Positions 6,850-18,696 of a stretch of DNA of 64,000 bases are shown here, one piece after another. The DNA is taken from NCBI GenBank assembly GCA_015063685.1, contig SVTR01000002.1, positions 1 through 64,000 of the forward strand. Reading direction: 5' to 3'. The stretch's first letter is position 1. Each line of letters starts with the position of its first letter. Position numbers and translations under genes: made by a program. The DNA comes from Oscillospiraceae bacterium. GTDB lineage: Bacteria; Bacillota; Clostridia; Oscillospirales; CAG-272. The notes under the pieces were generated by a model, which was not told the DNA's origin, did not search any database, and worked only from the letters and a program-made list of their open reading frames with translations.

Positions 6850-7668
6850 ATGATGAAAAAGTTACTCGTTATGCTTCTGGCCCTGGCCATGATTTGCACC
6901 ACCTTTGTTGCCTGCGGCAACAAGAGCAGCTACGAAGACCTCGTCATCGTCGACCTGGGTCTTGAAAAGGAATATTTCGGCATCGCTTTCCGCGCGGGCT
7001 CTGATATGACCCGCAAGGTTGAGGATATTACCCTCCAGCTCATTGAAGATGGAACCCTGGGTGAGCTGTCCACCAAGTATGAGGTCGGCGCCGTTGGCAA
7101 GGGTGAGTACACCCCCAAGGCCGACGCTTGTGCTGATAGCGACGACTGGGCTTACATCAAGGACAAGGGCACACTGGTTGTCGGTATCACCGATTACAAG
7201 CCCATGGATTACCTGGACGAGAACGGCGAGTGGATAGGCTTTGACGCTGAATACGCCCGTGCCGTAGCCGCAAAGCTTGGCGTTAAGGTTGAATTCAAGG
7301 AAATCGACTGGGATTTCAAGCTGGCATCTCTGGAAGCCAAGGAGATCGACTGCATCTGGAACGGTATGACCATCACCGAAGGCATTGAAGCCGCCGCTGA
7401 TTGCACCGCGCCCTATATGTATAATACCCAGGTAGCCGTGGTCAAGAAGGAAAATGCCGACAAGTACAAGGCCATCGCTGACTTCAAGGGCGTAGCCATC
7501 GCGGCCGAGGGAGGTTCCGCAGGTGAGACCGTTATCAAGGAGAACGCCGATCTGAAGGACGGTCTGAAGACCGTCACCGCGCAGACCGATGCCCTTCTGG
7601 AGGTGCTGTCGGGTGCTTCCGAGGCAGCCATCGTTGACCTGACCCTGGCTAAGGCTCTGATCGGTTAA
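6850..7668 (+). CDS. Amino-acid-type ABC binding lipoprotein, circularly permuted
   Basis: A 272-aa family-3 solute-binding protein with a lipoprotein signal (hydrophobic core, then FVACG; lipid Cys about residue 22). The domain order is rearranged. In the family the chain ends with a YxDLVxVD - YGIAF - GSD - DGTL - KY block. Here that block (SYEDLVIVD to STKYEV, residues 27-79) comes first, right after the signal. A linker follows, then the usual N-terminal lobe (DKGTLVVGIT, IWNGMTIT) and the second lobe, stopping at AIVDLTLAKALIG where the missing block would start. Total length is normal, so this is permutation rather than duplication. The ligand Arg expected after TIT is replaced by Ile (about residue 179). 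ATG 6850 or 6853 follows GGAG. Confidence 0.9.
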   Translation: MMKKLLVMLLALAMICTTFVACGNKSSYEDLVIVDLGLEKEYFGIAFRAGSDMTRKVEDITLQLIEDGTLGELSTKYEVGAVGKGEYTPKADACADSDDWAYIKDKGTLVVGITDYKPMDYLDENGEWIGFDAEYARAVAAKLGVKVEFKEIDWDFKLASLEAKEIDCIWNGMTITEGIEAAADCTAPYMYNTQVAVVKKENADKYKAIADFKGVAIAAEGGSAGETVIKENADLKDGLKTVTAQTDALLEVLSGASEAAIVDLTLAKALIG

Positions 7669-7681
7669 AAAACGCAAAAAA

Positions 7682-7717
7682 TCTGCTCGGGGCGCACCCT
7701 GCGTCCCGAGCTGTTTT
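7682..7717 (+). terminator. Hairpin after the binding-protein gene
   Basis: GCTCGGG pairs with TCCCGAGC around a 12-nt loop and is followed by TGTTTT. It probably terminates part of the transcripts, giving the binding protein in excess over the permease and ATPase. Confidence 0.7.
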
Positions 7718-7749
7718 AAGGATATAGCGTGAAAATTCAGTAATCTAAA

Positions 7750-7923
7750 GGGTATCTCTAAATACTCAGTGTGCGGCGAGATGCGAGGGATTTTTTCGTC
7801 AGACTAAAGGTCACCTCTAAACAAAAATCTGCGCGCATAGTCGTCTCTATGCGAAAGAATTTTGTGACGTATGACGGAAAAAGCACCGTCATATCGGCGT
7901 GCGATGAGTTTTTAGAGATACCC
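7750..7923. mobile_element. MITE, subfamily A, copy 1
   Basis: A 174-bp non-coding element with imperfect terminal inverted repeats (GGGTATCTCTAAATACTC and the complement of GAGTTTTTAGAGATACCC). TAAA is duplicated on both sides (7746-7749, 7924-7927). An internal stem GCATAG/CTATGC is kept in all A copies. It is 13 bp longer than its sister at 18536 because of a stub at 7809-7821 that matches the end of a subfamily B element. Confidence 0.85.
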
Positions 7924-8053
7924 TAAAACCCAAGCAAACTGTTTCACGCACAAATCTACCCTGAAAATGGGACCCAACCCATTTTTGCCTAACGGCTCGG
8001 GGGTATTTCAAGGTTCATTTGTACCGTCGCACAGCGGCGGAATGGAGATTATT

Positions 8054-8704
8054 ATGGATCAATTTTGGAAAATCACGCTGGATCTTATGGTGGGCTTTGG
8101 AGAGACCCTGAAGATCTTTGCCATCACACTCGCGTTGTCTCTCCCCTTGGGCCTCATCATCGCCTTCGGGTCCATGTCCAAGTTCAAGCCCCTCGCCGCC
8201 CTTACCCGCGCCTTCGTGTGGGTCATCCGCGGCACGCCGCTGATGCTCCAGCTCATCGCGGTCTATTACGGCCCCGGCCTGGTGTTCGGACAAATGCTTC
8301 TGACTGCCCCCGCAGCCGTTTACATCACCTTTACCATCAACTACGCCTGTTACTTTTCTGAGATCTATCGCGGCGGCATCGAATCCATCGCCAAGGGTCA
8401 GTACGAAGCGGGACAAGTGTTGGGCATGACCAAGCGGGAGACCTTCTTCAAGGTCATTCTCCTGCAGGTCATCAAGCGCATCATCCCCCCCATGTCCAAC
8501 GAGATCATCACCCTGGTCAAGGATACCTCCCTGGCCCGCGTAGTCACCTACTATGAGCTGATCTATTTCGCTCAGCGCTACATTAAGAACGCGGGTCTTT
8601 TGTGGCCGCTGTTCTACACCGCCATCTATTATCTGGTATTCACCGCCGTCCTGACCTTCTTCTTCCGTTGGCTGGAAAAGAAGCTGGACTATTTCAAGGC
8701 GTAA
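8054..8704 (+). CDS. Amino acid ABC transporter permease
   Basis: A 216-aa membrane protein of the HisM/GlnP type with about five helices. The conserved EAA loop lies at about residues 110-140 (GQYEAGQVLGMTKRETFFKV, then LPQ-like IPP and SNEIITLVKDTSL). ATG 8054 is chosen for the GGAG six nt ahead; the upstream in-frame extension has no ribosome site. It presumably moves the ligand delivered by the permuted binding protein, using energy from the ATPase 15 nt downstream. A MITE lies between it and the binding-protein gene. Confidence 0.93.
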   Translation: MDQFWKITLDLMVGFGETLKIFAITLALSLPLGLIIAFGSMSKFKPLAALTRAFVWVIRGTPLMLQLIAVYYGPGLVFGQMLLTAPAAVYITFTINYACYFSEIYRGGIESIAKGQYEAGQVLGMTKRETFFKVILLQVIKRIIPPMSNEIITLVKDTSLARVVTYYELIYFAQRYIKNAGLLWPLFYTAIYYLVFTAVLTFFFRWLEKKLDYFKA

Positions 8705-8719
8705 GGAGGTACAAATCAC

Positions 8720-9499
8720 ATGAATATGCTTGAAGTCAAAAACCTCCGCAAGCGTTTTGGCGACAACGAGGTTCTGAAGGGCATTGATCTGACCCTGGAA
8801 AAAGGTGAGGTTTTGTCCATCATCGGCGCTTCCGGCGGAGGCAAGACCACCCTTCTCCGTTGCCTCAACTTTTTGGAGCGTGCCAATAGCGGTGAGATCA
8901 TCGTGGGCGGCAGAAGCGTCTACAGCGCCCAAGACGGAGAAAAGCCCGTAGTCACCCCCGAGGCACAGCTTTCCTTCGGACTGGTGTTCCAGCAGTTTAA
9001 TCTGTTCCCCCAGTATAGCGTTATGGAAAACCTGATGCTGGCCCCCAAGCTTCGCGCCAAGCGCGAGGCAAAGCAAGGTGCGAGCGTGAAGGAAACGCCT
9101 GAAGCCATCCGTGACCGAGCGGAAAAGCTCCTCGCCACCGTAGGACTGTCCGAAAAGGCCAACGCCTATCCCTGCCAGCTATCGGGCGGTCAGCAGCAAC
9201 GTGTGGCCATTGCCCGCGCCCTCATGCTCTCCCCCGACATTCTTTGCTTTGACGAGCCCACCTCCTCCCTGGACCCCGAGCTGACCGGTGAGGTTCTTCG
9301 GGTCATCCGTTCCCTCAAGAGCAGCGATCGCACCATGATCATCGTCACCCACGAAATGGAATTTGCCCGTCACGTGTCCGACAAGGTGATCTTCATGGCC
9401 GATGGTGTTATCGAGGAGCAGGGCACCCCCGACGAGGTGTTCGGGAATCCCCAAAGCGATAAGCTCCGGGCGTTTTTGTCGGCCGGGGAAGAAAAATGA
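8720..9499 (+). CDS. Amino acid ABC transporter ATP-binding protein, GlnQ-type
   Basis: A 259-aa polar amino acid importer ATPase. Walker A is GASGGGKTT (about residues 34-42), the Q-loop is QQFNLFPQYSV, the signature is LSGGQQQRVAIARAL, Walker B is ILCFDEPTSSLDP and the H-loop is VTHEMEFARHVSD. An insert of about 20 residues rich in K and E precedes the helical subdomain, making it slightly longer than the usual 240-245 aa. AAGGAGG lies 9 nt before the ATG. It is the last gene of the importer operon. Confidence 0.95.
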   Translation: MNMLEVKNLRKRFGDNEVLKGIDLTLEKGEVLSIIGASGGGKTTLLRCLNFLERANSGEIIVGGRSVYSAQDGEKPVVTPEAQLSFGLVFQQFNLFPQYSVMENLMLAPKLRAKREAKQGASVKETPEAIRDRAEKLLATVGLSEKANAYPCQLSGGQQQRVAIARALMLSPDILCFDEPTSSLDPELTGEVLRVIRSLKSSDRTMIIVTHEMEFARHVSDKVIFMADGVIEEQGTPDEVFGNPQSDKLRAFLSAGEEK

Positions 9500-18535: not shown

Positions 18536-18696
18536 GGGCACCTCTAAATACTCAGCGTGCGGCGAGATGCGAGGGATTTTTTCGTCAGACTAAACAAAAA
18601 TCTGCACGCATAGTTGGCCCTATGCGAAAGAATTTTGTGACGTATGACGGAAAAAGCACCGTCATATCGGCGTGCGATGAGTTTTTAGAGATGCCC
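18536..18696. mobile_element. MITE, subfamily A, copy 2
   Basis: A 161-bp element in the same orientation as copy 1, ends GGGCACCTCTAAATACTC and GAGTTTTTAGAGATGCCC. AAGT is duplicated exactly on both sides (18532-18535, 18697-18700). It is uninterrupted and ends 14 bp before the pnuC promoter. Confidence 0.9.

Follow-up and report, generated by a model that had tools for sequence, protein, structure and literature searches.

A lipoprotein gene at positions 6850-7668 (plus strand) of the window, the 64,000-nucleotide stretch of Oscillospiraceae bacterium DNA analysed here (assembly GCA_015063685.1, contig SVTR01000002.1, positions 1 to 64,000 of the forward strand), is confirmed to encode a circularly permuted solute-binding protein of family 3 (SBP_bac_3). 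The block that normally closes such proteins comes first in the mature chain, and the remainder follows. Very probably this is a working, anchored binding protein, most likely permuted through duplication and trimming. Rearrangements of the same kind arose about ten times (some 10-12 changes) among related Bacillota, with the chain cut at four or more places.

The open reading frame starts at ATG 6850 (or 6853) and stops at 7666-7668, giving 272 residues from ATG 6850. Residues 1-22 (6850..6915) are a lipoprotein signal, read from the sequence, with the lipobox VAC (MMKKLLVMLLALAMICTTFVAC) and its cysteine at residue 22; they form the new N-terminus of the permuted protein. Next comes a C-block (residues 24-80; 6919..7089) that corresponds to canonical columns 172-227 and comprises the final strand of lobe 2, the return through the hinge and the C-terminal portion of lobe 1. 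A linker of 18 residues (7090..7143), delimited by profile mapping, joins the old C-terminus to the old N-terminus, and an N-block (residues 99-272; 7144..7665) covers canonical columns 1-171, that is, the first part of lobe 1, the hinge and most of lobe 2, and ends at AIVDLTLAKALIG. The linker also carries a cysteine (KADAC, ADPC; within 7090-7143) that is retained in most of the window's clade and may be what remains of the former lipobox after a duplication.

The order was established with a canonical family-3 profile of 232 columns built from 14 canonical relatives. The mature protein matches this profile twice, with the order swapped: residues 24-80 correspond to columns 172-227 (37 bits), and residues 99-272 to columns 1-171 (231 bits). 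Scored by itself, the C-block reaches 39 bits, against 7.6 bits for the best of 2000 shuffles. The first-pass annotation had read the leading block as the usual family-3 C-terminus, and the profile agrees, with the correction that the block starts about three residues earlier (24-80 and not 27-79). It had further claimed that the normal first lobe follows, that the chain ends where the moved block should begin and that nothing is repeated. All this is borne out: the two blocks tile the circle with 0 columns lost and 0 duplicated, the last five columns being the variable C-terminal tail. Rotation to canonical order, a check that the annotation had proposed, yields one continuous match of 278 bits. 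A normal C-terminal block hidden downstream by a sequencing error had been named as a possible refutation; no leftover family-3 block occurs in the flanks (about 2 kb on each side, both strands, all frames). The Pfam match to SBP_bac_3 (2.6e-29) lies within the N-block and passes the gathering threshold of PF00497 (102.1 versus 26.4 bits), covering the protein only partly (residues 110-245, profile positions 2-101 of 132). The N-to-C domain order of PF00497 is absent, the blocks being swapped, and the protein is therefore classed as a permuted homologue and not as an ordinary family-3 member.

Relatives with the same order, which the annotation had recommended looking for, exist. Twelve homologues with 72-88% identity, encoded in other genomes and public assemblies that represent Clostridia of the rumen and gut, have the identical permuted order, and all 12 have intact frames, their own lipobox and permease and ATPase genes downstream. 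The linker is 18 residues long in 13 of 13 proteins of the window's clade. The C-block, linker and N-block are all under strong purifying selection, with dN/dS values, where synonymous change is unsaturated, of 0.01-0.13, 0.04-0.22 and 0.06-0.18, respectively. A pseudogene reading was rejected since these values are well below 1. Given that the source is a draft genome of 57 contigs and that the relatives come mostly from metagenome-assembled genomes, the question arises whether a sequencing, assembly or binning artefact might mimic permutation of a normal gene. This is hardly credible, and was rejected on the strength of the independent conserved copies: the same order recurs in those 12 close relatives, in separate assemblies, with intact frames, their own signal peptides and a gene neighbourhood that continues without a break; purifying selection is evident, and the flanks hold no canonical block. 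In the window's own genome, the sole other family match is a canonical protein that is 29% identical.

An AlphaFold2 model of the window protein, based on 28 permuted sequences, is predicted with confidence (pLDDT 90.5, pTM 0.79), the block means for residues 31-80 being about 90-97. In the numbering of the model, the new N-terminus runs into the strand formed by residues 30-33 and the new C-terminus comes after the helix formed by residues 263-270, which places the cut in the loop that precedes the final strand of lobe 2, as had been anticipated; profile mapping, the 12 homologues and purifying selection concur. For residues 96-271, structural alignment finds the counterpart in the first 170-odd residues of family-3 structures, the best match being AncCDT-1 (5t0w_D; Z 16.5, 2.5 Å over 174 residues, 37% identity). 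The comparison with a type II binding protein that had been suggested thus covers residues 96-271, the part that could be aligned to solved family-3 structures; Foldseek and VIA-align are sequential aligners and, as is to be expected with permuted chains, covered only this N-block part, so that the packing of residues 24-80 rests on model confidence and sequence homology. Within this scope, none of the three refuting results named in the annotation came about. A relative with another cut site, L029, was modelled equally well (pLDDT 90.3, pTM 0.82), and for it the same aligners compared mostly the last half. Both models also match PDB 5jkq (PfVFT1 of Plasmodium falciparum), with an alignment that runs well past the permutation joint (residues 48-271 of the window model, 96-283 of the L029 model); it is nearly the sole solved chain to pass the joint in both, and may itself be arranged in an order similar to that of the permutants.

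The gene is followed on the plus strand by a cognate amino-acid ABC permease with a single subunit (8054..8704; PF00528, HEQRo_perm_3TM), whose start at ATG 8054 was picked by homology to L003 and L004, and by a cognate ATPase (8720..9499), which among named models comes nearest to cystine TcyN and histidine HisP. The succession of permuted gene, permease and ATPase holds throughout the window's clade. Selection, operon and predicted fold together suggest that the window protein is an importer subunit, namely a solute-binding protein (family 3, type II fold) that is anchored to the membrane and serves an ABC importer for polar amino acids. It would bind a small solute, close and dock on the permease dimer encoded by the next gene. 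Cystine and lysine/arginine/ornithine systems are the nearest named models, each scoring well below its cut-off. In family 3, the arginine of the TITPER motif usually holds the alpha-carboxylate of the ligand. It is absent in the window's clade, where TITEGIEAA replaces TITPER (within 7144-7665), and also in the nearest canonical relatives (e.g. L018, L005 and L030); it is kept in most other permutants, among them much of the divergent clade cut at column 171 and the permutants cut at columns 133 and 100-108. The ligand of the window's clade may therefore be unusual and not an ordinary amino acid. The cleft can survive the cut: the aspartate of the AIVD motif, which in family 3 contacts the ligand amino group, sits just before the new C-terminus.

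Just 3′ of the binding-protein stop lies a hairpin followed by a T-run (7685..7717, plus strand; GCTCGGGGCG...CGTCCCGAGC), conserved in L003, L004 and L011, which probably acts as a partial terminator setting the ratio of binding protein to permease. Relative to these three loci, about 300 bases are inserted between the binding-protein and permease genes (7720-8020), carrying inverted repeats of GGGTATCTCTAAA at 7750-7762 and 7911-7923. The motif occurs in the window in 13 imperfect copies, where 0.8 would be expected. Positions 18536/18684, 30124/30271 and 63372/63514 probably mark additional pairs, and the copies constitute a MITE-like repeat family.

The window's clade is one of many. With a doubled canonical profile, used to locate the cut site in each relative, 69 distinct permuted family-3 proteins were recognized in Bacillota, in four cut-site groups at columns ~27, ~100-110, ~133 and ~171, nearly all of the cut sites being in lobe 2. 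Among the 145 distinct family-3 ORFs collected, 78 are canonical, 45 are cut at ~171 like the window protein, 16 at ~133, 5 at ~96-108 and 1 (L037) at ~27; L168 and L169, from another family of the phylum and cut at ~102, bring the permuted total to 69. Since loci were chosen with permuted queries, these counts do not measure prevalence. In the permuted relatives the two pieces cover the circle about once, the linkers have 13-30 residues and nearly all proteins start with their own lipobox. The genes for all 5 proteins cut at 96-108, for L037 and for most others precede a permease and an ATPase. Four assignments required individual attention: L118, L119 and L127 were assigned as column-171 permutants after their sequences were read, and an apparent full-circle match in L041 was rejected because of an N-terminal tail, leaving it canonical. 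One column-171 permutant (L155:102-1109) has a transmembrane anchor in place of the lipobox, and the same genome carries a second permutant, L154.

Trees were built from sequences rotated back to canonical order. On the more careful tree of 124 rows, parsimony gives 11 changes of topology state, 10 of them between canonical and permuted, as a number that carries no direction; supported branches force at least 8 canonical/permuted changes, and a quick tree with L168 and L169 added gives 12 changes. Permutants cut at column 171 fall in six separate places, and a tree uniting them all in one clade has a log-likelihood lower by 346 and is rejected (AU p 1e-73). These 11-12 changes, together with the AU rejection, show that permutation is recurrent. 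Because the count is directionless, a similar tally might also result if permutation happened only once or a few times, long ago, and the canonical order was then regained repeatedly. Such a history is very improbable: four cut-site groups are impossible from one event, a single clade for the window's cut site is rejected by the AU test just cited, reversion requires the same rare step, and solved family-3 structures have the canonical order.

As to how each permutation might have come about, the exact complementarity of the blocks fits the rotation of one gene. The most plausible, if unproven, route is an in-frame tandem duplication after which the first copy lost its front and the second its end. 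On such a route, duplicated or half-trimmed intermediates are to be expected (PMC3320104); none occurs among the ORFs of the fetched loci, and no locus there has two family-3 genes. The C-block might instead have been captured from another binding-protein gene, by fission and fusion or by exchange, so that the protein would be a mosaic and not a rotated whole. In the window protein the two blocks do have different closest canonical relatives, and their rank concordance (rho 0.60) lies a little below the canonical baseline (median 0.76), just under its 10th percentile (0.63). Capture is nevertheless unlikely, given that 0 columns are lost or repeated, as rotation of one gene predicts, and that 4 of 5 other permutants tested are concordant (rho 0.74-0.80; L029, 0.50).

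The chain runs from the lipid anchor through the last strand of lobe 2, the hinge and the C-terminal part of lobe 1 to the linker, and from there through the N-terminal part of lobe 1 and the hinge to the rest of lobe 2. With the cut inside lobe 2, lobe 1 is continuous, lobe 2 is discontinuous and both hinge crossings are kept. The lipid anchor, canonically on lobe 1, would then sit on lobe 2, a shift that follows from chain order, with cleft and hinge maintained. Why such proteins should recur is a separate matter. A tentative proposal, on the doubtful side, is that amino-acid binding lipoproteins of gut Bacillota are under recurrent selection to shift the tether to the other lobe, a shift made some ten times independently by permutation within lobe 2, since the position of the tether might alter docking on a homodimeric permease. 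Compatible with the preferred reading as well, and in our judgement evenly balanced between true and false, is the view that the permutation, though genuine, is a neutral accident which the protein tolerates and that the new anchor position is inconsequential. Lobe 2 has ~42% of the columns and received 10 of the 11 counted events (binomial 0.0012); this excess speaks only weakly against neutrality, the test being post hoc, the events being counted by parsimony and the lobe borders being assumed from the LAO-binding protein. Cut sites vary, however, and in L037 (column 27) the cut is in lobe 1 and the anchor stays on lobe 1; engineered family-3 permutants, moreover, are tolerated (PMC5087393).

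As a rule, a natural circular permutation is an ancient, one-off event detected by structure. Here, a single family offers many permutations at high identity, with permuted and canonical sisters, four cut-site groups and conserved operons. With sisters of both kinds side by side, one could ask directly by what route permutations come about, which cut sites are viable and whether the tether is the driving force. The family is thus a natural experiment in the tolerance and use of new protein ends, and it offers templates from nature for permuted sensors of amino acids. The permutants are labelled by standard profile libraries as partial ordinary matches, and for this reason such events are overlooked.

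In the open-access literature, no report was found of natural permutation in family 3 or of repeated permutation within one binding-protein family. A natural precedent is TpMglB-2 (Tp0684) of Treponema pallidum and its gut relatives ('Type Ic'), a naturally permuted, lipid-anchored protein encoded beside ABC genes, for which D-glucose binding and closure were shown and tethering was proposed by the authors as the cause (PMC4990184). The window protein shares with it natural permutation, a lipid anchor and adjoining ABC genes. TpMglB-2, however, has a type I/cluster B sugar-binding fold, with the N lobe permuted, a fourth hinge crossing and an insertion; its permuted segment is only 13% identical to its counterpart, and it was described as one family. 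The window protein is not of Type Ic, its homology being to SBP_bac_3 and not to MglB. Within the wider binding-protein superfamily, a natural circular permutation also distinguishes glycine-betaine-binding proteins from CysB and molybdate-binding proteins (CPSARST, PMC2395249). That case was found by structure at <24% identity, whereas the present permutants have block identities of up to about 66-73% to canonical relatives and are recurrent, with several cut sites. Within family 3 itself, an engineered permuted LAO-binding protein made for FRET sensors still binds lysine, 36-fold more weakly as a sensor (PMC5087393). It resembles the window protein in being a permuted family-3 member, with ligand binding shown for LAO, and differs in being man-made, cut in a hinge linker, joined by an artificial (GGS)4 linker and free of a lipid anchor. 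To canonical family 3 (PF00497, type II/cluster F; TcyJ, GlnH, ArtJ, LAO and Thermotoga maritima ArgBP), the window protein is homologous over its whole length, sharing the lipobox, the downstream PAAT-type permease and ATPase and the predicted fold elements. It differs in an order rotated by ~61 columns, an anchor that would lie on lobe 2, an 18-residue linker at the old ends and, in its clade, the missing alpha-carboxylate arginine.
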